NCBI RefSeq assembly: GCF_000427885.1
Contig: NZ_ATYW01000015.1
Span: forward strand, 1-64,000
Length of the DNA: 64,000 bases
Reading direction: 5' to 3'
DNA from: Glycomyces tenuis DSM 44171
GTDB lineage: Bacteria > Actinomycetota > Actinomycetes > Mycobacteriales > Micromonosporaceae
The translations under genes and the position numbers were made by a program. Positions 1 to 31,217 of this stretch are shown here, piece after piece. How positions within the stretch are numbered: position 1 is the first letter of the stretch; every line of letters starts with the position of its first letter. Below the pieces are notes generated by a model, which was given only the letters and a program-made list of their open reading frames with translations, searched no databases and was not told the DNA's origin.

Positions 1-2720
1 TCTTCCTGGCGGCCGAAGACGCCGGCGACGTGCGGGAGCTCCTCGATGCCGCGCAGCGTGCCGCCGCCGAAGTCGAGGCAGTAGAACTGCACCTCGCGCG
101 GGGTGTGCGTCAGCGCCAGCGAGCCGATCATGGTCCGCAGCATCGTCGACTTGCCCGACTGGGCCCCGCCGGCGATGGCGACGGTGCCCTGCGCGCCGGA
201 GAGGTCGACGATGAACGGGCTGCGCTTCTGCTCGAACGGCCGGTCCTCGTCGCCGATGACGGCGTGGAGCTTCCCGTTGAGCGCGAAGCCCTGCGGGGTC
301 AGGCCCCGGACCGGGTCGATCTCCAGCGGCGGCAGCAGCTGGTCGAGCGTGGGCGGATCGGCCAGCGGCGGCAGCCACACCTGGTGGGCCGGGCGGCCCA
401 TCCCCAGGCAGTTGTTGACCATGACCTCGAGTTCGGAGAGCTTCTCGTTCTCGTCCTCCTCGACCTCGGCCACGACCTCCTCGGGCTCCTCCTCGGGCTC
501 CGGTTCGGGCGGCAGCTCGACGCGGCCGGGCAGGAACCGCTGCACCTTGTGCTGCACGGCGGCGATGCGCTCGGCGCGCGAGGCGATCTTCTTCGGCGGC
601 TTGTAGGTCCCGCCGACGTAGGCGGCGCGGAAGCGCACCAGGTCCTCGGTGCCGACCTGGAGGTAGCCGTGGCCCGGCTGCTGCGGCAGCTCATAGGCCG
701 CGCCGGAGCCGATGACGGTGCGCGACTCCTGCGCCGAGAAGGTCCGCAGCGCCACCCGGTAGGACAGGAAGGTGTCCAGGCCCTTGAGCTTGCCCTCCTC
801 CAGGCGCTGCGAGGCCAGCAGCATGTGCACGCCGATCGAGCGGCCGATGCGGCCGATCTGGAGGAACAGGTTGATGAACTCGGGCTTGGCGACGAGCATC
901 TCGGAGAACTCGTCGGCGATGATCAGCAGCGTCGGCATCGGATCGAGCGGCTGCCCCGCGGCGCGGGCCTTCTCGTACTCCCACCGGTTGGTGAAGTTGC
1001 CGGCGCGGCGCAGCTCCTCCTGGCGCCGCACCAGCTCGCCTTCGAGGGCGTCCTGCATGCGGTCGACCAGCTCGATCTCGTCGGCCAGGTTCGTGATGAC
1101 CGCCGAGACGTGCGGCAGCTCGTCCAGGGCCGCGAACGTGGCGCCGCCCTTGAAGTCGACGAGGATGAAGTTGAGCTCCTCGGAGGAGTGCGTGGCGATC
1201 AGGGAGCCGACGATGGTGCGCAGCACCTCCGACTTGCCGGAGCCGGTGGCGCCGATGAGCAGGCCGTGCGGGCCCATGCCGCCGACGGCGGCCTCCTTGA
1301 AGTCGATGTCGACGATCGCGCCGTCCGGGCCGGGCCCGATCGGGACCTTCAGGTAGTCCTTGATCGGCTTCTCGCGCCAGTGGACGGCCGGGTCGAGCGC
1401 GGCGGCGTCGTTGAAGCCCAGCATCTCCGGCAGGCTCGACGGGTTCGCCATCGGCGAGGCCTCTTCGTCGCCGGACTCGGTGGAGCCGCCCGCGCCCTTG
1501 AGCGTCAGGCGCCACGGGGACAGGCTCCGGGCGATGCCCTCGGCCTGGTTGTACGAGAGCCGGTCGGGCCTGCCGAGGACGCGCCGGCGCCCGGCCTGGT
1601 CGGTGCGGATCTCCTCGACGGCGACGTCGAACAGCTTGGTGTCCGGTCCGGGCTTGCGCGGCAGGTAGCCGGAGAAGTCGAAGACGGTGACCCCGGCCAT
1701 GCCGCCGGCGGCGACGATCCCGGTCGGGTCGACCTCGCCGCCGTCGAGGATGATCACCAGGTGCCGCTCGCCCTCGCCGGAGGTGGCCCCCGGCGACCAT
1801 CCGGCGCGGCTGGCCATCTGGTCGCGCAGGGCGGTCTCGAGCTGGCCGGTGGAGTTGTAGAACATGCGCACCGGTCCGGCGCCGTCCTCCTCGCTGGGGT
1901 GCTGGAGGTGCGGCAGCCACTTCATCCAGTGCCACTCGGGCATGCGCTCGTTGTCGGCGACGACGGCGATCAGGACGTCGTCGGGCGAGTGCAGGACCGC
2001 CAGCTGGCAGAGCTGGGCGCGCAGGTTGTCCATCACCAGGGCCCGGTCGCCGCGCAGGACCATGCGCCCGGCCTCGGTGTACTTCATCGAACGCGGGATG
2101 TCGATGACGTTGGAGTGCGCCGCCACGAAGCGCCTGAGCGCCATCGACGTCATCGGCTCGAGGTCCTCGACCGGCTTCGTCTCGGGAGGCACCAGCTTCA
2201 TCGTCATGCGCTGCTTGCCGACGCCGACTCTGACCTCGAGCGAGTCGTCGTCCTTGGGGCGCCGCTCCCACATCCGGCGCGAGCCGACCAGCGACCACAG
2301 CGCGCGGGGGTCGGGGTGGCGCCAGCGCGCCGCCCGCCACTGCCGCTCGGCGCCCTTCCTGGCGCGGCGGCGGACCTGGTTGAGGTAGCGCATGTAGTCG
2401 CGGCGGTCGGCGTTGAACTCGGCCTTCTTCTGGCCGCGGTTCGAGGTGATGTTGGTGGCCATCATGCCGATCATCGAGATGCCCATCATGGCGCCCATGG
2501 CCATCATGAGCGGGTCGACCCCGCCGCCGGCGCCGCCGCGGCGCATCATCATCAGCGTCATGGCGCCCGCGCCGCACAGCATCGGCAGGATCATGAGGTA
2601 CTGGCTGATCGACTTCGGCTGCGGGTCGGGCATGTCCGGCGGGGATTCGAGCAGGATGTCGCCGCGCGGGGCCTGCGGACCGCGTTTACGCGGCGGCCTG
2701 CGGAAGAGTTTGGTCGTCAC
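1..2720 (-). CDS. eccC: EccC, type VII (ESX) secretion ATPase, 3' end beyond window
   Basis: This is the membrane-anchored FtsK/SpoIIIE-type motor that recognises and drives ESX substrates through the type VII secretion machine. About 906 residues are visible; the C-terminus lies left of the window (fused EccC proteins are usually about 1300 aa). Two membrane segments rich in Met and Gly lie near residues 40-92. The first FtsK domain has Walker A GATGSGKS (Lys about 496) and Walker B LLIIADEF (Asp about 603); a second Walker A, GGAQSGKST, is near Lys 857. The start is GTG at 2720, preceded by AAGGA at 6-7 nt spacing. It is divergent from eccD and eccB, which fits an ESX locus. A long antisense frame over the same DNA is a shadow. 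The EccC assignment is firm. Confidence 0.96.
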   Translation of the reverse strand, partial: MTTKLFRRPPRKRGPQAPRGDILLESPPDMPDPQPKSISQYLMILPMLCGAGAMTLMMMRRGGAGGGVDPLMMAMGAMMGISMIGMMATNITSNRGQKKAEFNADRRDYMRYLNQVRRRARKGAERQWRAARWRHPDPRALWSLVGSRRMWERRPKDDDSLEVRVGVGKQRMTMKLVPPETKPVEDLEPMTSMALRRFVAAHSNVIDIPRSMKYTEAGRMVLRGDRALVMDNLRAQLCQLAVLHSPDDVLIAVVADNERMPEWHWMKWLPHLQHPSEEDGAGPVRMFYNSTGQLETALRDQMASRAGWSPGATSGEGERHLVIILDGGEVDPTGIVAAGGMAGVTVFDFSGYLPRKPGPDTKLFDVAVEEIRTDQAGRRRVLGRPDRLSYNQAEGIARSLSPWRLTLKGAGGSTESGDEEASPMANPSSLPEMLGFNDAAALDPAVHWREKPIKDYLKVPIGPGPDGAIVDIDFKEAAVGGMGPHGLLIGATGSGKSEVLRTIVGSLIATHSSEELNFILVDFKGGATFAALDELPHVSAVITNLADEIELVDRMQDALEGELVRRQEELRRAGNFTNRWEYEKARAAGQPLDPMPTLLIIADEFSEMLVAKPEFINLFLQIGRIGRSIGVHMLLASQRLEEGKLKGLDTFLSYRVALRTFSAQESRTVIGSGAAYELPQQPGHGYLQVGTEDLVRFRAAYVGGTYKPPKKIASRAERIAAVQHKVQRFLPGRVELPPEPEPEEEPEEVVAEVEEDENEKLSELEVMVNNCLGMGRPAHQVWLPPLADPPTLDQLLPPLEIDPVRGLTPQGFALNGKLHAVIGDEDRPFEQKRSPFIVDLSGAQGTVAIAGGAQSGKSTMLRTMIGSLALTHTPREVQFYCLDFGGGTLRGIEELPHVAGVFGRQE

Positions 2721-2801
2721 AATGGGTCCTTGTACTCAATCACCGGGGGAGGCGCCTGCCACAGCTCGACTCGCTCGCGTCTCGCGAACTTCGGCGAGGC
2801 C

Positions 2802-2884
2802 GCTTGCGGGCCGTGACGCAACACTCACGGCGGAGCTTGCGAGCTGTAATCCGGCGCTCACAGCGAAGCTTGCGAGCGGTAATT
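2802..2884. repeat. 33-bp imperfect tandem repeat upstream of eccC
   Basis: Three copies begin at 2802, 2835 and 2868, each starting GCTTGCGRGC. The second and third share GCTTGCGAGC-GTAAT; the third fades after about 16 bases. The array lies in the eccC leader beside an AT-rich patch (2880-2912, TATAAAAGATATAAG) that could hold divergent promoters. Because 33 is a multiple of 3, short minus-strand frames across it show an 11-residue repeat, but nothing else marks them as genes. The function is unknown; a binding array or a slippage product are both possible. Confidence 0.7.
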
Positions 2885-3038
2885 TTGGTCTTGCCGTATA
2901 AAAGATATAAGTGCGCTCTGTCGAGTATCGCACTGTCAGGGTAGAACCGCATCGCCACCGGGCGCCCGTGCTCGGTTGCGCGGAGGATTTATCCTGGACG
3001 AGTCCCCCCAGTTTCGACCCGACCCGGAGGTTCGCGCG

Positions 3039-4454
3039 GTGAGCACCAAGTCGGCCACCCTGAGCAGGGTGACGATCGTCAGCCCTCGCACGAGGATCGA
3101 CCTCGCGTTGCCCTCAGACGTCCCACTGTCCGACCTCCTGCCGACCATCCTGCACCAGGCCGGGGAGTACTACATCGACGAGGCCGGCGACAACGGCGGC
3201 TGGATCCTGTCCAGGCTCGGCGAGGAGCCGCTCGACACGGGCCACTCGTGCTCGCAGCTGTCGATCACCGACGGCGAGATGCTGTACCTGAACCCGGCCG
3301 ACGCGGCCAAGCCCGAGATCGTCTTCGACGACGTCATCGACGCCGTCGCCACCGCCACCGAGCAGCGCGGCAACCGCTGGGACCACCTGGCGACGAAGCG
3401 CTTCGCCACCGGCGTCGGCACCGCGGCCCTGGCCGCGGGCGCCATCGCGGTGCTGTTCACCGGCCCGCCGCAGCTGCCGGGCGCGGTCGTCGCGCTGGGC
3501 GTGGCGTTCGTCCTCGTCGGCGCCTCGCTGCTGCTGTCACGCGCGGTCGGCGATTCGCGCGCGGCCACCTACTTCGGCGTCACCGCCGTGTTCTACGGCG
3601 GGGTCGGCGGCCTGCTCCTGGCCGCCGGAGACACGAGGATCTCCGACCTGGCCGCGCCGCACGTCATGATCGCCGCCGCGGCGATCCTGCTGTTCAGCGT
3701 GCTCAGCATGGTCGCCGTCGGCGACATGGCCTCGGCTCCGGTGTTCATCACCTCGATCCTCGGCGCGGTCGTGCTGGCCGTGGCCGTGGGCTTCATGATC
3801 CTCGTCGACCACCCCAACTACCCGGCCACCGCGGCGACCGGCGCGGCGATCGCCGCGCCGCTGGCCCTGGCGATCCTGCCCTCGGCGCCGCGCCTGTCGC
3901 TGACCATGGCGATGGTGCCCACCCCGCAGCTGCCGGCCACCACCGAGGAGCTCAAGGAGGGCGACGCCGAGTCCGTCGACGGCAAGCGGATCCTCAAGCT
4001 CTCCGAGCACGCCGGGAACTACCTCGAGGCGCTGTACGCCTTCGCGGCCGTGGTCGGCGTGGTCTCGACGATCGCGCTGGCGTTCTCCGGCACCACGCCC
4101 GGCGTCATCCTGGCCACGGTCATCGCCCTGGTCCTGCTCAGCCGCTCGCGCACCATCGAGGACCGCCCGGCCCGCATCGTCATGCTCGCCGCGGGCATGG
4201 GCGGCCTGGCCGCGGTGCTCACCGCGATCTTCATCGACGGCGGCACCTTCGTGCGCCTGGTCGCGATCCTGGGCGCGCTGACGCTGCTGACCCTGATCGC
4301 GATGGTCTACGGCCTGGCCGTGGCGGGCAAGAAGATCGCCCCGACGTGGGGCCGCATGCTCGACATCTGCGAGGCGCTCCTGATCGTGTCGATCCTGCCG
4401 CTGGCCGGCTGGATCTGCCACCTGTACTCCTTCGCGCTGACCCTGCGCGGCTGA
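3039..4454 (+). CDS. eccD: EccD, type VII secretion integral membrane protein
   Basis: EccD is the multi-spanning membrane component of the ESX translocation pore. The 471-aa protein has an N-terminal ubiquitin-like (YukD) domain of about 90 residues (VTIVSPRTRIDLALPSDVPL onward). It is followed by roughly eleven hydrophobic segments to the C-terminus, which is the family architecture. I chose GTG 3039 because GGAGG lies 8 nt upstream (3026-3030) and the ubiquitin-like fold begins right after it; an upstream TTG in the same frame has no such site. The gene is divergent from eccC and is followed 39 nt later by eccB, probably in one transcript. Confidence 0.95.
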   Translation: MSTKSATLSRVTIVSPRTRIDLALPSDVPLSDLLPTILHQAGEYYIDEAGDNGGWILSRLGEEPLDTGHSCSQLSITDGEMLYLNPADAAKPEIVFDDVIDAVATATEQRGNRWDHLATKRFATGVGTAALAAGAIAVLFTGPPQLPGAVVALGVAFVLVGASLLLSRAVGDSRAATYFGVTAVFYGGVGGLLLAAGDTRISDLAAPHVMIAAAAILLFSVLSMVAVGDMASAPVFITSILGAVVLAVAVGFMILVDHPNYPATAATGAAIAAPLALAILPSAPRLSLTMAMVPTPQLPATTEELKEGDAESVDGKRILKLSEHAGNYLEALYAFAAVVGVVSTIALAFSGTTPGVILATVIALVLLSRSRTIEDRPARIVMLAAGMGGLAAVLTAIFIDGGTFVRLVAILGALTLLTLIAMVYGLAVAGKKIAPTWGRMLDICEALLIVSILPLAGWICHLYSFALTLRG

Positions 4455-4493
4455 CCCCCGCCCCCGAGCCGATCCCGAGAGAGGCCGAATCCG

Positions 4494-6062
4494 ATGCCGC
4501 AGATGCGTTCCCGCCGCGAACAGGTGGACGCCCACCGCTTCATCACCTCGCGGATGAACCAGGCTCTGGTCCTGGCGAACCCCGACTCGGTCGAGCGTCC
4601 GCTGCGGCGCATCGGCGTCTCGATCTTCGTCTCGGTGATGATCATGGTGCTCATCTTCGCCGGTTTCGCGATCGCCGCGCTGCTCAACAAGGGCAACGAG
4701 GACCCCGTCATCGGATCGATCATCACCGTCAAGGGCACGCAGGCGATCTACGTCTACACCTACGCGCCGGGCGACGAGGAGGCCGGCGAGCCGGCGAAGC
4801 TGTGGCCGGTCGCCAACTACACTTCGGCGCTGCTGCTGCTCCAGCCCTACGACGGCGAGCCGCCGGTCCAGGACCTCAAGCCCGAGTCGCTGGAGGGCGT
4901 CCCGCGCGGCTTCCCCATCGGCATCACGGGCGCGCCCGCGGAGCCGCCGCCGCCCGACAGCCTCCTGCAGAGCGAGAACTGGAACGCCTGCACGATGCCC
5001 GCCGAAGAGGGCAGCAAGGACAGCCACATGCTGACGCAGCTCGTGGTGGAGGACCTGCCCGCGCCCGAGTGGCTCGGCCAAGACCAGTGGCTGCTGGCCA
5101 GGACCGCCGTCGCCGACCCCGCCGAGCAGGACCTCTACCTGCTGTGGAACGACCGGAAGTACGAGATTCAGGACGAGCGGGTGCTGAACGTGCTGGACCT
5201 CCAGCGGGCCGAGTCGATCCCGCTCAACGAGGACATGCTGAAGACGATCCCCTCGGGCGCGGCGCTGGCGGCCGAGCCCGGCGAGGGCTTCGGCACCGAC
5301 TCCGGCGTCTCCACCGACGAGCACGGCGTCCTCCAGTACGGCCAGACCGTCGAGGCCGGCGAGGAGCTGTTCGTGCTGATGCAGGACGGGGCGAACGGCG
5401 ACGAGTTCGCCGAGATCACCGAGACCGAGCGGCGGCTGCTCCAGGACGAGACCGGCCTGGACACGCTCACCATCCCGGCCCAGGTGAAGAACGACACCGG
5501 CGCGCAGGCCGCGTACGGCTCCGACGACTTCCCGCAGGATGTCGAGGAGCTGTGGACGGTGGACCCGGCCCGCTTCGCCGTGTGCGCGGTCTTCGACCCG
5601 GACCTGAGCAAGGACGAGGCCAAGATCTCGATCGCCATGTACGAGACGGCGCCCAAGACGATGACGGACGCCGCCGAGTCGATGGACATCAACTCCGAGG
5701 GCGACATCGTCTCCAACGTGCCGGGCCAGACCGCCCAGCCCGTGCTGCCGCCGGGCACCGCCGCGCTGGTGTCGGCGCAGTCGAGTCCGGGGCAGACCAT
5801 CCAGGGCATCACGTACCTGGTCGACAGCCTCGGCTACCGCTACGGCCTGGTCGACGTCGGCGAGACCGGCTCCACCAAGAAGCTGCTCGGCTACGGGGAC
5901 GTCGAATCGGTCGGCGTGCCCGAGTCGATGCTGTCGCTCATCCCCAAGGGGCCGAGCCTGGACCCGACCGTGGCCAAGAAGCAGCAGGCGCCCGACAGCG
6001 ACGAGATCCCCACGTTCGACACCGGCGAGGACGAGGAGTCGGCGGCGGCCGAGGGCGAGTAG
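4494..6062 (+). CDS. eccB: EccB, type VII secretion membrane-anchored periplasmic component
   Basis: EccB anchors in the membrane by one helix and projects a large extracytoplasmic domain, completing the conserved EccB-C-D core of ESX systems. The 522-aa product starts with the family N-terminus MPQMRSRREQVDAHRFITSR. It has one transmembrane helix (about 41-64) and then a long extracellular region with two cysteines, C166 and C364, in positions expected for the EccB disulfide. The tail after about residue 490 is acidic and low in complexity. It follows eccD directly, and a PGYGQQ-repeat membrane protein follows it. No mycosin protease or WXG100 genes are visible here; they may lie left of the window. 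Confidence 0.95.
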   Translation: MPQMRSRREQVDAHRFITSRMNQALVLANPDSVERPLRRIGVSIFVSVMIMVLIFAGFAIAALLNKGNEDPVIGSIITVKGTQAIYVYTYAPGDEEAGEPAKLWPVANYTSALLLLQPYDGEPPVQDLKPESLEGVPRGFPIGITGAPAEPPPPDSLLQSENWNACTMPAEEGSKDSHMLTQLVVEDLPAPEWLGQDQWLLARTAVADPAEQDLYLLWNDRKYEIQDERVLNVLDLQRAESIPLNEDMLKTIPSGAALAAEPGEGFGTDSGVSTDEHGVLQYGQTVEAGEELFVLMQDGANGDEFAEITETERRLLQDETGLDTLTIPAQVKNDTGAQAAYGSDDFPQDVEELWTVDPARFAVCAVFDPDLSKDEAKISIAMYETAPKTMTDAAESMDINSEGDIVSNVPGQTAQPVLPPGTAALVSAQSSPGQTIQGITYLVDSLGYRYGLVDVGETGSTKKLLGYGDVESVGVPESMLSLIPKGPSLDPTVAKKQQAPDSDEIPTFDTGEDEESAAAEGE

Positions 6063-23195: not shown

Positions 23196-23750
23196 TCAGA
23201 CGGCGGGGCCGCGGCGGCGCAGGTCGTCGACGCTGAGCATCGCCTCGCGCAGTTCCTTGAGCCAGTCCTCGGCGTGCTGCTCGACGAGCCGGACGCACCA
23301 GGCGAGCGCGTCGGAGCGGGAGGCGGCCACGCCGGAGCCGACGAGGGTGTCGAGGACGAGCCGCTCGGGCTGGCGGAGCCTGGTGGTGACCGGTATGGAC
23401 TGGTGGGTGAACACCATGGTGGTGGCCCCGCACCTGGCGCCCCAGGAGGCCTGCCGGTGGTAGCGGTACTGGAGCTGCTGGGCGATCTGGACGCGCATGT
23501 CGCGGGTGGCCTCGCGGAACCGGGAGATGCGGCCCTCCTCGGTGGCGGCGCGGTCGGACTCGGTGGCGTCGCCGGGGTGGTCGGGGGCCGGGAGCGGGCA
23601 GATGATGATCATCTCGTCGCGGTCGACGCTCACCTCCGGCATGCCGGCGATCCAACCGTCGGGGACGATGCCGAAGATCCACGCCGGGGCGTCGTCGGTG
23701 GACGGCAGGGGGCCGTAATGCCACGAGCTGGTGTCGTCGATGCCCGCCAT
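23196..23750 (-). CDS. Hypothetical protein with C-terminal ribbon-helix-helix-like segment
   Basis: A 184-aa protein. The N-terminal 110 residues are unrecognised (contains WHYGPLPSTDDAP and WIFGIVPDGW). The C-terminal part, VTTRLRQPERLVLDTLV then GVAASRSDALAWCVRLVEQ, has the form of a ribbon-helix-helix DNA-binding unit: a short strand, then LD-LV and SRSDAL helices. It might bind DNA or dimerise. The start ATG 23750 has GAGGAG about 8 nt upstream. It lies 61 nt behind the coiled-coil membrane gene and is probably the last gene of the FtsK-like operon, possibly its autoregulator. That role is inference. Confidence 0.75.
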   Translation of the reverse strand: MAGIDDTSSWHYGPLPSTDDAPAWIFGIVPDGWIAGMPEVSVDRDEMIIICPLPAPDHPGDATESDRAATEEGRISRFREATRDMRVQIAQQLQYRYHRQASWGARCGATTMVFTHQSIPVTTRLRQPERLVLDTLVGSGVAASRSDALAWCVRLVEQHAEDWLKELREAMLSVDDLRRRGPAV

Positions 23751-23811
23751 GGAACGGTCTCCTCACGTTTCGGGGACGCATCAGGTGTACCTCATGGCGG
23801 CAAGTCGGCTG

Positions 23812-24480
23812 TCACGTCCCCCGCAGGAACACCCCCGCCAGCGCGCATGTGGCGACGACGGCCGCGGCGACGCACGCGATCGTCTGGGTGGGGCGGGGCC
23901 GCACCCGGTACTGCCAGGACAGCCACGCGCCGAGGACGATCGGGCCGGCGGCGACGCCCGCGAACAGGGTCGCCGCCGCCAGGGCCCGGCGGAGCGCGAC
24001 GGCGTCGCCGGGGTCGGCGGTGAGGGTCCAGGCGGCGAGGGCGACGGCGGCCGCGCCGAGGGCGGCGCCGATGCCGGCGGCGGCCGGTTCGGTGTGGCGG
24101 GGCGCGTCGATGGGCAGTTCACCCTGCCGGGCGAGTTCGAGCAGGCGTCCGGCGCGGGCGATGCGGGCGCGGACCGCGGCGGCGTCCGCGCTCTCCCCCG
24201 CCGGTCCGGCGGGGGGGACCTGGCCGGTGCGGCGGGGGCCGACGAAGCCGCCGAGGGCCCGCCACAGCTCCGTGACGGCCTTGTCGGTCTCGGCGACCAG
24301 GGCGGTGGCCTCGGCGGCGGCGCGGTCGGCCTCGCCGCGCCGCTCGCGGGCGGCCCGGACGGCGGCGGCGAGCGATGCGGTCTCGGCCCGGTAGGCGTCG
24401 CGGGCGGAGCGGATCTCGGCGTCGGCGGCCTCGCGTTCGCTGCGGTAGCGGGCGACGGCGTCGGCGTATTCGGTGTCCAT
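23812..24480 (-). CDS. Coiled-coil protein with two C-terminal membrane helices
   Basis: A 222-aa protein. Residues 1 to about 75 are a highly charged Ala/Arg/Glu coiled coil (YADAVARYRSEREAADAEIR). A linker with GGFVGPRRTGQVPP follows. The C-terminal third contains two or three hydrophobic helices (AAAGIGAALGAAAVALAAW and a last pair ending AVVATCALAGVF). The topology suggests a membrane anchor with a long cytoplasmic coiled coil. It starts 8 nt after the FtsK-like ATPase gene. I do not recognise a family. It could dock the ATPase at the membrane in place of EccB/D-type partners. Confidence 0.8.
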   Translation of the reverse strand: MDTEYADAVARYRSEREAADAEIRSARDAYRAETASLAAAVRAARERRGEADRAAAEATALVAETDKAVTELWRALGGFVGPRRTGQVPPAGPAGESADAAAVRARIARAGRLLELARQGELPIDAPRHTEPAAAGIGAALGAAAVALAAWTLTADPGDAVALRRALAAATLFAGVAAGPIVLGAWLSWQYRVRPRPTQTIACVAAAVVATCALAGVFLRGT

Positions 24481-24488
24481 GGCGCCTC

Positions 24489-27146
24489 TCAGAGCGGGCC
24501 GTCGAGGACGGCGGTCGGTCGCGGGAGGCCTTCGGTGGCGCGGTAGGGGATGACCACGTGCGGGGCGCGGTGCCGGGCGCGGTCGAAGTAGAGGCCGCGC
24601 CTCGCCCGGGGGTACCAGGCGGGGCCGCCGGAGGCCGGTGAGAGCGGCGCGAGTTCGGGGCCCTGGACGTCGAGGGCGAGCCAGGCGTCGACGGCGTCGA
24701 AGCGGGCGGCGAAGCCGCCGAGGTCTTCGCGCAGTCGCGGGACGGACCGCCACCAGCCGAGGGTGTGGAGGTGGCGTTCGGGGCCGTCCAGGAGCATCGA
24801 GCGGAACGACGCGGCCTCGGCGGCGTCGAGGCGGGGCGAGCCGGCGTCGACGGCGTACAGCAGCACGAGCCGGAAGGCGCCGTCGGCGCGCGTCTGCCAG
24901 TCCTTGCAGGTCTCGGCGAGGCCGTCGTGCCAGGCGACGTCGGCGCCTTCGGTCTCGAGGGCGGCGGCGAGGGCGAGGGCCCCGGCGGCGGCGTCGGGTT
25001 CGAGGCAGCACAGGTCGACGGCGACGGTCTGGGCGCGGGCGGCGGAGAGCGCGGCGGCGGCGAGGACGTCGGCGGCCTCGGCGGTGCGGGTGCCGAGGAC
25101 GGCGAGGTTGCGGCCGGGCGCGCGGTGGAGGGCGAGCTCGGCGGGCCTGGCGGCGACGTCGATCGTCTGGCCCAGCAGCGCCGTCTCGGTCCGCGGCACC
25201 TGTCCGGTGAACGCGGGGACGAGGTCGCCGTCGAACAGCATAGGCGGGGTGTTGCCTTCGGGCCTGGCCTCCCACAGCCGCCGCTGGAGCGGCTCCCAGG
25301 CGGCCGCGTGTCCCGCGTTCGGGAGGGCGACGGTGGTGTTGGCGCCGGGCACGCCGGATTCGGCGTTGACGATGGCGTGAAAGCGCGGGACGGTGTCGGC
25401 GGCGTGGTTGTTCTCGGCGAGGACGCGGCGGGCCTTCGGCAGGGCGATCCGCATCGTGAACTGGGCGACCAGGCTGGGGCGCCCCCACAGCGCCTCGATG
25501 CCCGCGACGTCCTGCGAGGCGAGGACGAGGTGGATGCCCTGGCCGCGCCCGCGCCTGGCGAGGTCTTCGAGCAGGCTCACGGCCTCGTCGGTGACCGCGT
25601 CGCGGGCTTCGAGGAGGACCTGGAACTCGTCGACCATGGCGACGATGCGGGGCCAGTGCCCGCCGGGGTCGGCCTCGCGGAGCTCTTCGAGCTTGGTGGC
25701 CTCGTGGGCCTTGGCGGCCTCGGCGCGGCGGCGCAGTTCGGCCTTGAGGTGCCGCAGGAGCGCGAGCCCGAATTCGCGGTCGTCGTTGATGTTGACGCCG
25801 ACGAGGCGGACGTGCGGGAGCCAGGTGGGGTCCCTCCTGCCCGCGGCGAAGCGGGCGAAGGAGACGCCCTCTTTGAAGTCGAGGAGGTACAGCGCGAGCT
25901 CGTCGGGGTGGTAGGTGGAGGCGAGCGCGGCGATCCAGGCGTAGAGGAGGTTGGTCTTGCCCGAGCCGGAGGGGCCGCCGACGAGCGCGTGCGGCGGGTC
26001 GTCGCCCAGGGCGACGCGGGCGACGTCGCCGGTGGGGCGCTCGCCGAGGGCGACGTCGAGGCCGCCCGCGGAGCTGGCGGCCCACAGCCGGGCGGGGAGC
26101 AGGTCGACCAGGCGGGCCGGTTCCCGGCCGGCGAGGTGCTTCTCGGCGACGGCCTTGGCGGCGGCGGTGACGGTGCGCGCGGGCGGGGCGGGGTCGAGCC
26201 GGAGGCGGGCGCCGGGCAGGCCGGTGTAGGCGGTGGCGCTCAGGCGGAGCGGGTCGTCGGTCTCGGCCGGGTCCTCGCCGAGGGGGCCGTCGCCGACGGC
26301 GACGAGGTGGACGCCGGCGCCGACGCCGGTGCGCCGCAGGCGGGCGAGCTGGGCTCGCTCGTGGGCGGTCCAGGCGGCGATGTCGGAGTTGAGCAGGACG
26401 AGGACGCGCCAGGGCTCGGGGCGCCGCCCGGTGGCGGCGGCGAGCTCGGCGAGGGTGGCGTGCTCGCCCGCGAGGACGTCGGCGTTGACGCGCCTGACGT
26501 CTTCGACGAGCGCGTCGAGCGCGTCGCGCAGCCCCGAGGGCCCGATGAAGGACAGCAGGCCGGCCTTGCCGAGGGGCGCGAAGGAGGCGAGGGAGCCGCC
26601 GAGGCGCTCGGGGTCGTAGACGTGGAGGCGGACGGCCCCGGCGGGGGCGGCGCCGACGGCCCGCAGCAGCAGGCCGGGCAGGGCCGCGGCGGCGTCGGAG
26701 GCGATGCGCAGGTGGGCGCGGTCGAGGAGGGCGACGAGCGCGGGCAGCGCGGGGGTGCCGCAGGCACTGCCGTCGAAGGCGCTCTCGTCGAGGGCGCCGA
26801 CGCGCAGGAGCGGGGCGGGGCCCCTGCCGGGCGCCGGGTAGGGGATCCAGCCGTCCCAGGACGCGCCGGCCGCGGTGGGCGCGGCGAGGGCCGCGGCGTC
26901 GGCGACGGCCTGGGCGCCGGCGCGGACCGCGTGCGCCCGCCTCGCCTCGAGGGTGGCGGCCACGCGCTCGTGGACGGCGCCGAGCCCGGCCTGCCTGCGT
27001 TCGGCGGCGCCGATGGCGACCTCGGTCTCGGCGCGCGCGGCCGATGCGGCCGTCGCGGCGCGTTCGGCGAGTTCGCGGGCCTCGCCGCGGGCGGTGCTCA
27101 GTTCCTCGGCCATCGCGGCCACCAGTCGCCTGCGCCAGCTGCTCAT
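24489..27146 (-). CDS. FtsK/SpoIIIE-domain ATPase, EccC-like but lacking membrane helices
   Basis: An 885-aa motor protein. Residues 1-80 form an Ala/Glu/Arg coiled coil. About 110-290 looks like a degenerate P-loop domain (no Walker A; LRVGALDESAFDG, WRVLVLLNSD). About 370-640 is the active FtsK domain, with Walker A VGGPSGSGKTNLL (391-398), YLLDFKEGVSF, and Walker B IVAMVDEFQVLL near 506. About 660-840 is a third domain with a decayed P loop (LAVLGTRTAEAADVL). A triple domain with one active site recalls EccC. However, no transmembrane segment and no EccB/D partner are present. The start ATG 27146 overlaps the upstream stop. Candidate roles are a non-canonical export or DNA/protein translocation motor. 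The family is unassigned. Confidence 0.9.
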   Translation of the reverse strand: MSSWRRRLVAAMAEELSTARGEARELAERAATAASAARAETEVAIGAAERRQAGLGAVHERVAATLEARRAHAVRAGAQAVADAAALAAPTAAGASWDGWIPYPAPGRGPAPLLRVGALDESAFDGSACGTPALPALVALLDRAHLRIASDAAAALPGLLLRAVGAAPAGAVRLHVYDPERLGGSLASFAPLGKAGLLSFIGPSGLRDALDALVEDVRRVNADVLAGEHATLAELAAATGRRPEPWRVLVLLNSDIAAWTAHERAQLARLRRTGVGAGVHLVAVGDGPLGEDPAETDDPLRLSATAYTGLPGARLRLDPAPPARTVTAAAKAVAEKHLAGREPARLVDLLPARLWAASSAGGLDVALGERPTGDVARVALGDDPPHALVGGPSGSGKTNLLYAWIAALASTYHPDELALYLLDFKEGVSFARFAAGRRDPTWLPHVRLVGVNINDDREFGLALLRHLKAELRRRAEAAKAHEATKLEELREADPGGHWPRIVAMVDEFQVLLEARDAVTDEAVSLLEDLARRGRGQGIHLVLASQDVAGIEALWGRPSLVAQFTMRIALPKARRVLAENNHAADTVPRFHAIVNAESGVPGANTTVALPNAGHAAAWEPLQRRLWEARPEGNTPPMLFDGDLVPAFTGQVPRTETALLGQTIDVAARPAELALHRAPGRNLAVLGTRTAEAADVLAAAALSAARAQTVAVDLCCLEPDAAAGALALAAALETEGADVAWHDGLAETCKDWQTRADGAFRLVLLYAVDAGSPRLDAAEAASFRSMLLDGPERHLHTLGWWRSVPRLREDLGGFAARFDAVDAWLALDVQGPELAPLSPASGGPAWYPRARRGLYFDRARHRAPHVVIPYRATEGLPRPTAVLDGPL

Positions 27147-27934
27147 CGTCGGCCTTTCCGCTCGCTCGTGCCGGTGCTCGTGCGGGGGAGCCGGTGGAGG
27201 GCGGCGACCAGGGCCGGGCCGAGGGCGGCGGTCTCGGCCGCGTCGCCGCGGCGCCGCGCGGGGCCGAGGGTGCAGGCGGCGGCGAGGGCGGCCGCGAGGT
27301 GCTCGGCGTCGACGCCGGGGACGAGGGCGCGGACGCGGTCGGCGCAGCGGTCGCGCAGCACCGGCAGGTCGCGGGCGGTGGGGGCGCGGCCGAGGTGCTC
27401 GGCGGCGAGGGCGCGGACGAGCGGCCAGGCGAGGCCGGGGAGTTTGACGCCGGTCTCGGGTCCGGCGTCGCGCAGGCGGCGGTGGTAGGTCGCGGCCGAG
27501 CCGTCGGCGGCGGCCTTGAGCAGCTCGTTGAACAGGGCCGTGGGGGCGGCCTGCGCGGGTGCGGGCGTGCCGGTGCGGCGGCACAGCTCGTCGACGCGCT
27601 CGGTCCACCACTGCCGGGGGTCGACGGCCGCGGCCGGTTTCGGGGCGGGCCCGGTCGCGGCCGGGGCGGCGCCGGCCGCGGCTGCGGCGGCGCCGATGGC
27701 CTCGAGGTAGTCGTCGACGGCCGTGCCCGCTTCGGCCAGGCGGGTGCGCGCGGCGGCGAGGTGCTCGCGGGCGGCGCCGAGGCGGTGGAGGCCGAGTTCG
27801 GCGCCCGATTCCCTGGCGGCCTCCCGCAGCTCGGCCAGGGCGCGGTCGAGGTGGTCGTCGGCGGCGGCCAGGCCTGTGGCGGGCAGCTCGGCGGCGAGGG
27901 CGCGGAGCCCGCTGGCGAGGGCGGCGACGTCCAC
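27143..27934 (-). CDS. Helical hypothetical protein of the FtsK-like operon
   Basis: A 263-aa, Ala/Leu/Arg-rich, almost wholly helical protein. Residues 1-95 look like a helical bundle (ASGLRALAAELPATGLAAAD). An Ala/Pro linker (about 96-120) leads to a second helical domain beginning DPRQWWTERVDELCRR. No signal peptide or TM is seen. The start is GTG 27934 with GGAG upstream. Its TGA overlaps the ATG of the ATPase, implying coupled translation and perhaps a stoichiometric partner or adaptor. No family is recognised. Confidence 0.8.
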   Translation of the reverse strand: MDVAALASGLRALAAELPATGLAAADDHLDRALAELREAARESGAELGLHRLGAAREHLAAARTRLAEAGTAVDDYLEAIGAAAAAAGAAPAATGPAPKPAAAVDPRQWWTERVDELCRRTGTPAPAQAAPTALFNELLKAAADGSAATYHRRLRDAGPETGVKLPGLAWPLVRALAAEHLGRAPTARDLPVLRDRCADRVRALVPGVDAEHLAAALAAACTLGPARRRGDAAETAALGPALVAALHRLPRTSTGTSERKGRR

Positions 27935-27947
27935 AGGGGCTCCGTTC

Positions 27948-28223
27948 TCAGAGGGTGGAGGCGTAGCCTTCGGCCTGCTCGGCGGCGGCGAAGGTGGCGG
28001 CGAGGGACTGTTCGAGTTCGGCGGCGGCCTGCGCGAGCGCGGCCTGGGCGGTGGCGACGGCGTCGTGGCCCGAGCCGGCCGTGACGGCCGACAGGCGCCC
28101 CTGGGCGGCCTCGATGTTCTGGCTGGCGGCGGTGATGGCGGCCTGGCCGTCGCGGACCTGCTGGAGGGCGGCGGCGATGGCCGATTTGAGTTCGGCGACG
28201 CTCACGGTGGACACGATGTTCAT
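27948..28223 (-). CDS. Small helical protein (WXG100-sized), first gene of the FtsK-like operon
   Basis: A 91-aa protein predicted as two long helices (VSVAELKSAIAAALQQVRDG and the AQAALAQAAAELEQSLAATF region) joined near GHD, with about the length and shape of WXG100/ESAT-6 proteins. It lacks the W-x-G turn and no YxxxD/E tail is visible. It is first in an operon whose second and third genes are a helical protein and an FtsK-like ATPase, so it could be a substrate or a structural subunit. I chose ATG 28223; an upstream in-frame extension is possible. The assignment to a secretion substrate is speculative. Confidence 0.75.
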   Translation of the reverse strand: MNIVSTVSVAELKSAIAAALQQVRDGQAAITAASQNIEAAQGRLSAVTAGSGHDAVATAQAALAQAAAELEQSLAATFAAAEQAEGYASTL

Positions 28224-29770: not shown

Positions 29771-30454
29771 ATGATCCCACTGCTGACCCGGTACGGTTCG
29801 AAACTCGCCGCCGTCCTCGTCCTCGCACTCGGGGCCGTCATCACCGTCAGCGCCATCAGCGACACCCCGGCCGAGGACGACGCCGCCCACCCCAGCCAGG
29901 CCGCCGCCGAACAGCAGGCCGAAGCCGAAGCGGCGTACGAGGAAGTGCGATTCCAGCACGTCAACTACATCGCCGAGACCGCGGGCGCCGACGTCGACAC
30001 CAAGGCCGCGGCCGTCGCCGACTACGCGGTCTCCAAGGCCGAAGGCCTCGACGACGCCGAAGCCGAGGCACAAGCGGCCGCCGAGGCCGCCGCCGCCGCG
30101 GAAGCGGCGAACAACAACCCCACCTCAGTGGACATCCCCTCCAGCTGCGACGAGTTCTCCGGCAACCGAGCCACCGGCTGCGCCATCAACCTCGAATGGG
30201 GCTTCGACCTCGAGCAGTTCGGCTGCCTCGAGGCGCTGTGGAGCAGGGAGTCGGGCTGGAACGAGCTGGCCGCGAACTCGATCGGCGCCTACGGCATCCC
30301 CCAGGCCCTGCCCGGATCGAAGATGTCCAGCGAGGGCGACGACTGGGAGACCAACCCGGTCACCCAGATCCGCTGGGGCCTGGGCTACATCGAAGGCCGC
30401 TACGGCACCCCCTGCGCGGCCTGGGAGCACTCCGAGAACAACGGCTGGTACTGA
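29771..30454 (+). CDS. Secreted transglycosylase-like protein, copy 1
   Basis: A 227-aa exported or membrane-anchored protein. The N-terminal hydrophobic helix is about 11-29 (KLAAVLVLALGAVITVSAI). A long Ala/Glu-rich, helical stalk follows (to about 120). The C-terminal lysozyme-like domain has catalytic Glu in WSRESGWNELA and the actinomycete motif GAYGIPQALPGSKM, ending AWEHSENNGWY. Such domains cut peptidoglycan glycan strands. Cysteines CDEF, GCAI, GCLE and PCAAW suggest disulfides. ATG 29771 has AGGAG, partly buried in a perfect stem-loop. A paralogue of identical length follows. Confidence 0.92.
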   Translation: MIPLLTRYGSKLAAVLVLALGAVITVSAISDTPAEDDAAHPSQAAAEQQAEAEAAYEEVRFQHVNYIAETAGADVDTKAAAVADYAVSKAEGLDDAEAEAQAAAEAAAAAEAANNNPTSVDIPSSCDEFSGNRATGCAINLEWGFDLEQFGCLEALWSRESGWNELAANSIGAYGIPQALPGSKMSSEGDDWETNPVTQIRWGLGYIEGRYGTPCAAWEHSENNGWY

Positions 30455-30533: not shown

Positions 30534-31217
30534 ATGATCCCCCTGCTGACCCGCCACGCGGCCCGGCTCGCCGCCGTCCTCGTCCTCGCGCTCGGCGCGG
30601 TCATCGCCGTCAGCGCCATCAGCGACACCCCGGCCGAGGACGACGCCGCCCACCCCAGCCAGGCCGCCGCCGAACAGCAGGCCGAGGCCGAAGCGGCGTA
30701 CGAGCAGACCAGGACGCTGCACCTCAACTACATCGAGGCGACCGCCGGGGCCGACGTCGACACCAAGGCCGCGGCCGTCGCCGACTACGCGGTCTCCAAG
30801 GCCGAAGGCCTCGACGACGCCGAAGCCGAAGCCCAAGCGGCCGCCGAGGCCGCCGCCGCCGCGGAGGCCGCGAACAGCAACCCCACCTCAGTGGACATCC
30901 CCTCCAGCTGCGACGAGTTCTCCGGCAACCGAGCCACCGGCTGCGCGATCACCCTCGACTGGGGCTTCGACCTCGAGCAGTTCGCGTGCCTGGAGCAACT
31001 CTGGTCCAAGGAGTCGGGCTGGAACGAGCTGGCCGCGAACTCGATCGGCGCCTACGGCATCCCCCAGGCCTACCCGGGTTCCAAGATGGCCACCGAAGGC
31101 GACGACTGGGAGACCAACCCGGTCACCCAGATCAACTGGGGCCTGGGCTACATCCAGGGGAAGTACGACACCCCCTGCGGAGCGTGGGCCCAGTCCGAGT
31201 CCGAGGGCTTCTACTGA
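30534..31217 (+). CDS. Secreted transglycosylase-like protein, copy 2
   Basis: A 227-aa paralogue of the preceding gene, colinear over its whole length and very similar, including long identical runs in the stalk. Differences cluster at residues about 58-68 (EQTRTLHLNYIEAT), around the catalytic helix (EQLWSKESGWNEL) and at the end (GAWAQSESEGFY). The catalytic Glu is kept. The ATG at 30534 has AGGAG upstream. The 79-nt spacer from copy 1 lacks a clear promoter, so both are probably co-transcribed. Tandem duplication at a 763-bp period is visible. Confidence 0.92.
   Translation: MIPLLTRHAARLAAVLVLALGAVIAVSAISDTPAEDDAAHPSQAAAEQQAEAEAAYEQTRTLHLNYIEATAGADVDTKAAAVADYAVSKAEGLDDAEAEAQAAAEAAAAAEAANSNPTSVDIPSSCDEFSGNRATGCAITLDWGFDLEQFACLEQLWSKESGWNELAANSIGAYGIPQAYPGSKMATEGDDWETNPVTQINWGLGYIQGKYDTPCGAWAQSESEGFY

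Follow-up and report, generated by a model that had tools for sequence, protein, structure and literature searches.

The locus and its genes

The window studied here, the whole stretch of DNA that was analysed, comprises 64,000 nucleotides of Glycomyces tenuis DSM 44171 (contig NZ_ATYW01000015.1, positions 1 to 64,000). It holds five closely packed minus-strand genes, P0001 to P0005, the third of which encodes an ATPase resembling the EccC protein of type VII (ESX) secretion systems. A first-pass annotation made from the sequence alone had described these genes as a five-gene operon. The five reading frames are all present (91, 263, 885, 222 and 184 amino acids (aa); Table 1) and, as it had remarked, stops overlap or nearly touch the next start: P0002 and P0003 overlap by 4 nucleotides (nt), and P0003 and P0004 are 8 nt apart. 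P0001 and P0002 are separated by 13 nt. The gap between P0004 and the fifth gene, at 61 nt, is wider than the spacing among the first four. The proposed operon stands for P0001 to P0004, which form a conserved unit, but not for the fifth gene.

Table 1. Position of the genes, motifs and type VII genes of the window.
Feature	Position	Strand	Description
P0001	27948..28223	-	91 aa; first gene; helical hairpin of WXG100 size, no WxG
P0001 C-terminal motif	27951..27965	-	Y-A-S-T-L-COOH (Y-x-x-x-L)
P0002	27143..27934	-	263 aa; N-terminal hairpin (helices 19-43 and 49-79; invariant Y76) and helical domain 106-247
P0003	24489..27146	-	885 aa; EccC-like ATPase; helix 2-88, three FtsK/RecA-like regions, P-loop in the middle one only
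P0003 long N-terminal helix	26883..27143	-	Residues 2-88; no hydrophobic segment
P0003 Walker A	25953..25976	-	GPSGSGKT; middle domain, residues 391-398
P0004	23812..24480	-	222 aa; N-terminal coiled coil; hydrophobic C-terminal segments 133-151, 166-184 and 201-219 (hydropathy only)
P0005 (fifth gene)	23196..23750	-	184 aa; AbmR-family regulator (NF058631, 4.8e-71)
EccC	3-2720		ESX gene; cut by contig start
EccD	3069-4436		ESX gene
EccB	4494-6062		ESX gene

A conserved four-gene unit

The named loci studied are the 80 best among at least 454 confirmed relatives of P0003. Counting gene linkage called for 2.5 kb or more upstream and at least 1.5 kb downstream, which left 71 loci and excluded 9 for lack of room; the profiles used were built from the same loci in which the counts were made. 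A P0004-type protein follows the ATPase in all 71 loci, and P0001 and P0002 lie ahead of it in 59. The genes flanking the block vary: they are PEPCK, PhoH and UppS in Glycomyces and differ from these in Micromonospora and in genomes of Actinoplanes type. That the block persists among differing neighbours speaks for a functional unit and against a frozen gene order. Of the five genes proposed to co-occur in other genomes, four do so and the fifth does not.

The ATPase is present in all 22 genomes of the genus, our own included, at 75-100% identity. The closest named relatives among the matches listed are Glycomyces contigs (72-82% identity) and one actinomycete metagenome-assembled genome (83%). 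Our genome has a single P0001-type gene above chance. Gene order differs elsewhere, running ATPase, coiled-coil/transmembrane protein and 87-aa hairpin in family f32, and 86- and 87-aa hairpins, ATPase and coiled coil in family f15. At one locus (L148, G249:C1), an in-frame TAG splits the ATPase, with the coiled-coil and hairpin genes adjoining.

An ATPase with a single P-loop

The first-pass annotation gave the ATPase one active P-loop domain and two decayed ones. This agrees with what we find: the only P-loop of P0003 starts at residue 391, accompanied by a DEF Walker B, and in the predicted structure the regions on either side of the middle domain adopt a mixed alpha/beta fold lacking a P-loop. 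Each of the 78 ATPases called in the 80 named loci has exactly one P-loop motif (78/78), and 23/24 rows of the ATPase alignment (A1) keep GxxGxGK[ST] as Walker A. The long N-terminal helix in Table 1 comes from the model, and hydropathy gives no hydrophobic segment anywhere in P0003. A separate 855-aa ATPase paralogue (L102) has lost the lysine of the middle P-loop (GRSGAGVS) and has no P-loop motif in the whole protein. In another locus (L206, G000:C2:413500-420500), the FtsK gene forms one 1660-aa frame with about 490 extra residues starting inside Walker A, which looks like an intein.

By sequence, P0003 lies closest to EccC. Its middle domain scores 91 bits against EccCa (cut-off 509), 69 against EssC, 52 against EccCb and 11.6 against FtsK in NCBIfam, all far under the cut-offs. 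Searching PDB sequences with the ATPase family profile ranks T. curvata EccC (7.6e-38) ahead of YukB (1.6e-25), EccC5 (1.2e-24) and FtsK (5.6e-11). Foldseek gives the same picture with the P0003 model: the top match is 4nh0, the cytoplasmic part of EccC (1.4e-28, 916 columns), followed by EssC, 4n1a (EccC ATPases 2-3 with a signal peptide) and FtsK. The TM-score against 4nh0 is 0.45, and the arrangement is therefore not identical to that of EccC. No FtsK gamma domain was found in P0003 in Pfam at E<=1.

We built three unrooted trees of the active ATPase domain from hand-picked rows (44, 35 and 34); the program warns of meeting long branches in the latter two. The P0003 family, together with WXG100-linked and thioredoxin-linked ATPases, splits from EccC with support of 93/97 in the 44-row tree, which includes EccC second domains. 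The same split of the P0003 family and linked ATPases from EccC receives 99/96 in the 35-row tree with two FtsK rows, where FtsK sides with EccC and away from the P0003 family, although long branches meet there. In the 34-row tree, which includes plasmid members, the P0003 family and the WXG100-linked ATPases part from EccC at 100/99. P0003 thus falls outside both EccC and FtsK, the described clades in which it might have been placed, and stands with WXG100-linked ATPases.

Known defence systems were also considered. PADLOC returned SspH (1.9e-17) and mad8 (9.8e-17), both on the FtsK domain of P0003, and we rejected these as identifications. Elsewhere PADLOC gave weak matches for P0001 (LmuB, 0.0069; ZorA, 0.095) and none for P0002, P0004 or P0005.

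Hairpins with a shared C-terminal tail

The P0001-type proteins are some 86-95 aa long and form hairpins, in keeping with the earlier description of P0001 as a two-helix protein the size of WXG100, and P0001 lacks WxG, as also stated there. All 57 P0001-type proteins of the named loci carry YxxxL at the C-terminus. Using a profile built from 30 such hairpins in loci picked by their ATPase, we found that [YF]xxx[LIFM]-COOH ends 84/85 profile-found hairpins (65/66 distinct ones), compared with 26/1867 other called proteins. The strict YxxxL tail is found in 60/66 distinct hairpins. WxG occurs in one of these 66, the other 65 being without it; a hairpin of Catenuloplanes japonicus (L091:5701-5958) has WDG exactly at the turn, where others have xxG, and matches PF06013 at 0.00033, under the cut-off.

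The first ~80 residues of P0002 make up a second hairpin. The P0002 profile matches hairpins elsewhere, and the P0001 profile matches a P0002. Compared with each other, the two profiles align end to end, tyrosine on tyrosine (61% probability, E 8e-5). Some relatives have two hairpin genes (L151, L107 and L213). Against PDB sequences, P0002 and P0004 gave only coiled-coil matches.

Proteins matching PF06013 adjoin outlying members of the ATPase clade, at 3.6e-7 in L227 (above the cut-off) and at 1.6e-5 to 1.9e-4 in L149, L155, L156 and L228 (under it). These neighbours of distant clade members lend contextual support to a kinship of the hairpins with WXG100 proteins; for P0001 itself, sequence comparison suggests direct WXG100 kinship but falls short of proof.

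The coiled-coil partner

P0004 had been called a coiled-coil membrane protein, which fits its N-terminal coiled coil and the three hydrophobic C-terminal segments seen by hydropathy. This coiled-coil membrane partner is conserved in Micromonosporales. Across the P0004-type genes, starts come from our own simple gene caller and membrane segments from hydropathy alone.

Occurrence beyond Glycomyces

Among 394 genomes of the class, 122 have an ATPase match at E<=1e-30, many of them merely EccC motor domains, and 54 have a match of more than 250 bits (families f1, f8, f15, f32, f34, f37 and f51). At phylum level, a search of 296 genomes gave matches at E<=1e-45 in seven. In plasmid records, P0001 had no match and P0003 matched 36 records, none covering 80%; the 11 phage records matching P0003 likewise cover less than 80% of it. 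Mobility of the Glycomyces operon is not borne out, given its ATPase in 22/22 genus genomes and the lack of a plasmid record covering 80% of P0003.

Plasmids do carry relatives. A more distant member of the P0003 branch lies on a Rhodococcus pseudokoreensis plasmid (L226), in the order Hsp70, TPR, GrpE, ATPase, a 203-aa protein, an 86-aa hairpin ending in YSSSL and a 272-aa protein. By eye, the 203-aa protein is a coiled coil with a hydrophobic C-terminal end; the 272-aa protein, which Pfam does not match at E<=0.01, seemingly starts with another hairpin. A Caballeronia plasmid (L227) carries VWA, WXG100, FtsK, DUF1887, VWA, PP2C and kinase genes, and its ATPase falls on P0003's side of the tree. 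A plasmid of Helicobacter sp. NHP19-012 (L228) combines an ATPase of the P0003 clade with genes for a WXG100-like protein, for one that bears a WHH/colicin-type DNase domain, and for SMI1/KNR4.

The fifth gene and other neighbours

The fifth protein had been described as RHH-like (ribbon-helix-helix). This did not hold up: no Pfam family is found at E<=1, and there is hence no RHH, while NCBIfam assigns it to AbmR (NF058631) with 237.8 bits against a cut-off of 160. AbmR is Rv1265, a Mycobacterium tuberculosis regulator that binds ATP and DNA (PMC8628891). An AbmR gene lies near the ATPase in 13 of the 71 loci, every one of them Glycomyces. We therefore rejected the fifth gene as a member of the system; it is probably a neighbour outside it.

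Further along the window, positions 29771-30454 and 30534-31217 hold tandem genes for two 227-aa proteins identical at 196/227 positions, the first with a weak transglycosylase SLT match (0.0029). GC content is 0.81 in 26001-28000, compared with 0.67-0.78 in the remaining 2-kb windows.

A possible translocation module and its alternatives

The first-pass annotation was reminded of a reduced type VII system. This resemblance has grown firmer, with EccC on top both by sequence and by predicted fold, a WXG100-sized hairpin of 91 aa and a second hairpin opening P0002. We give even chances to the four-gene unit being a reduced, EccC-like (type VII-like) translocation module, in which P0003 and P0004 would form a split, membrane-tethered EccC, and P0001 and P0002 a pair read through their YxxxL/I tails. 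P0003 is predicted to be a soluble ATPase, presumably acting as an oligomer, in which a single functional motor domain of FtsK/EccC type is flanked by two dead ones. P0004 probably tethers it to the membrane, its coiled coil meeting helix 2-88 of P0003, and the two together would replace EccC. By analogy with EsxA/EsxB, P0001 and the hairpin of P0002 may pair in the manner of WXG100 proteins. The ATPase would recognise the Y-x-x-x-L/I tails of this pair, probably through a dead domain, as EccC does. The helical domain of P0002 could be a built-in cargo or adaptor, and the pair would be moved through the membrane or loaded at it.

With more hesitation, we think it possible that the unit is a chromosomal housekeeping exporter of type VII kind that does without EccB, EccD, EccE and mycosin. 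Its split EccC would read WXG100-derived, mostly tryptophan-less hairpin pairs via a C-terminal YxxxL signal. The exporter would be kept through Micromonosporales and, in differing gene orders, in further actinomycete families.

Several observations weigh against the interpretation as a translocation module. No pore has been identified in the four-gene unit, and the coiled-coil partners of other clades have from one to five hydrophobic segments, with none in L151, L149 and L214. The hairpin genes are also missing at some loci: in 12 of the 71, from Actinoplanes and nearby genera, the ATPase/coiled-coil pair has no adjoining hairpin gene, nor does the Glycomyces paralogue pair on contig C13, which means that the pair may act alone. 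Amorphoplanes nipponensis, among the species with such a locus, has a second locus with both P0001 and P0002 (L033 and L086). Matches of the hairpins to WXG100 proteins are weak. The P0001-family profile does find ESAT-6 first among PDB sequences (2.1e-4), with its invariant turn glycine on the second glycine of the WGG of ESAT-6, but this match carries no significance, given that unrelated coiled coils reach 1.5e-7 with the reversed profile (with no Esx among the 60 of its 177 matches listed). P0001 has no PF06013 match in Pfam, and the comparison of its profile with six WXG100 proteins fails, at 3% probability. At E<=1, PF06013 weakly matches 13/30 hairpins (best 5e-5) vs 16/30 reversed ones (best 0.024). 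The second domain of P0002 has no match in Pfam, and its fold has none in the PDB at E<=0.001 (best 1.9). Finally, the branch bearing P0003 has poor support of its own in two trees (65/13 and 66/37), against 91/91 in the third.

The ATPase could instead belong to a machine that never secretes anything. Such a machine would serve in conflict or stress inside the cell, bound to the membrane in this branch, with the hairpins as cytoplasmic adaptors that hand P0002 or further proteins over to the ATPase to be remodelled. The want of a channel candidate fits this well, as do the Hsp70, GrpE and TPR genes beside the Rhodococcus plasmid copy and the CoCoNuT relatives, which have TerY-P and nuclease genes and no transmembrane segment, and for which the authors think a different mechanism likely (PMC11090510). 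We nevertheless hold it unlikely for the Glycomyces operon, whose ATPase is in all 22 genomes of the genus, whose membrane partner is conserved through Micromonosporales, and beside which reading of the neighbouring genes, made with no defence scan of them, recognised no defence or toxin gene. Rather unlikely, too, is a DNA-handling machine, in which the ATPase would move chromosomal or septal DNA like FtsK or SffA, P0004 would target the septum as SmeA does, and the hairpins would be regulators or clamps. The fold belongs to the FtsK family, and the gene is found mostly in families with large genomes, which we take to be mycelial actinomycetes; SmeA/SffA provide a precedent for septal targeting of an FtsK-like protein (PMC4255298). 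Yet NCBIfam, the PDB profile and the fold all place P0003 nearer to EccC than to FtsK; it lacks the gamma domain at the threshold given above, and it is not joined by FtsK in the tree with long branches, where FtsK groups with EccC. Hairpin partners are, moreover, a trait of type VII systems.

The window also contains canonical ESX genes, at 3-6062 and about 20 kb from the operon. The statement that EccB, EccD and mycosin are absent is correct for the operon genes themselves (Pfam and NCBIfam), although EccB and EccD are encoded this short distance away. The operon might accordingly be an accessory of that ESX system. EccD occurs in all 22 Glycomyces genomes, in 19 of them on the same contig as the ATPase and about 20-27 kb from it. 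We rate this slightly higher because, in three genomes of the family outside the genus (G022, G024 and G029), a different ATPase paralogue lies 9-13 kb from EccD. It still strikes us as improbable: in the six other family genomes in which both genes could be placed (G022, G024, G025, G033, G034 and G253), the operon's own ATPase is at least 158 kb from EccD or on another contig. Searches for EccD (TIGR03920, E<=1e-3), which did not extend to EccB or mycosin, found no match in 24/47 genomes chosen for carrying an ATPase of the P0003 clade, among them the single-contig genomes G157, G189 and G146; of the 37 genomes counted to the P0003 branch by score, 16 have no match. With no EccD in 24/47 ATPase-bearing genomes, ESX appears to be dispensable.

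Which components type VII secretion needs at a minimum is not settled. A conserved EccC-like motor with hairpins and a simple coiled-coil partner, found also where no EccD was detected, would lend itself naturally to testing this. Substrate recognition, too, could be tested directly, thanks to the uniform YxxxL-COOH tail.

Comparison with known systems

EccC and EssC of ESX systems are the closest solved structures to P0003 by sequence and fold, and share with it tandem FtsK-type domains and hairpin partners. P0003 differs in having no transmembrane segment and a P-loop in the middle domain only, and in lying on a separate side of the tree (100/99). The operon differs in having no EccB, EccD or mycosin among its genes and in its hairpins, which have a YxxxL-COOH tail and, in all but 1 of 66 distinct cases in the family, no WxG, where WXG100 substrates of ESX (T7SSa) systems have WxG and follow a YxxxD/E rule. 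From FtsK/SpoIIIE DNA translocases, P0003 differs in the missing gamma domain (Pfam, E<=1) and N-terminal transmembrane segments. AbmR (Rv1265) includes the fifth protein in its family but is not in the conserved four-gene unit.

In Streptomyces, the small membrane protein SmeA targets the FtsK-like protein SffA to septa, which resembles our pairing of an ATPase with a membrane partner; the account of them in PMC4255298 mentions no hairpin partners. We did not identify SffA in two f33 genomes, where the A1 matches are partial and fall in EccC-like, FtsK and degenerate FtsK-like frames. The f33 protein with the degenerate FtsK-like part is presumably TerD-like. For Micromonospora lupini, PMC4182475 gives the name 'FtsK/SpoIIIE family protein' to an eccC (40438) lying outside its three clusters, possibly a P0003-type gene.

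The nearest likeness is to the modules with solitary WXG100 proteins. Footnote 6 to Table 1 of Zhang et al. 2012 (PMC3482391) describes a 'distinct YueA-like ATPase' with the middle domain alone active, under 'mobile versions of T7SS' (type VII secretion systems), and does not include Actinobacteria. For CoCoNuT III-A loci, Bell et al. 2024 (PMC11090510) describe an EssC-like ATPase with an active middle domain, an N-terminal coiled coil and no transmembrane segment, together with two WXG100 proteins, one without WxG; the gene set of the Caballeronia plasmid resembles this description. Judging by sequence and these descriptions, the modules and the Glycomyces operon share three FtsK domains of which only the middle one is active or, in the operon, has a P-loop, an N-terminal coiled coil in place of transmembrane and FHA parts, WXG100-sized partners (one without WxG in CoCoNuT) and the same side of the tree. 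The modules are described there as mobile, whereas the Glycomyces branch is mainly chromosomal and genus-wide, with L226 on a plasmid. As far as those descriptions go, the operon is further set apart by hairpins without WxG (65/66), their YxxxL-type tail, the fusion of one hairpin with a conserved helical domain, and a coiled-coil membrane partner of its own.

The first-pass annotation knew of no named system of this composition. We also found no name or paper for this actinobacterial branch, in a literature search with thin coverage of subscription journals, but the kind had been outlined in 2012 (PMC3482391) and 2024 (PMC11090510). The kind is therefore known in its outlines, and the actinobacterial branch is a variant new to it. 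On our interpretation as a translocation module, the footnote on mobile versions would become an inherited actinobacterial system with a predictable set of partners. What is new is a mainly chromosomal actinobacterial branch with non-WxG hairpins, a [YF]xxx[LIFM] tail, a fused hairpin and a coiled-coil partner, occurring also in genomes without an EccD match.

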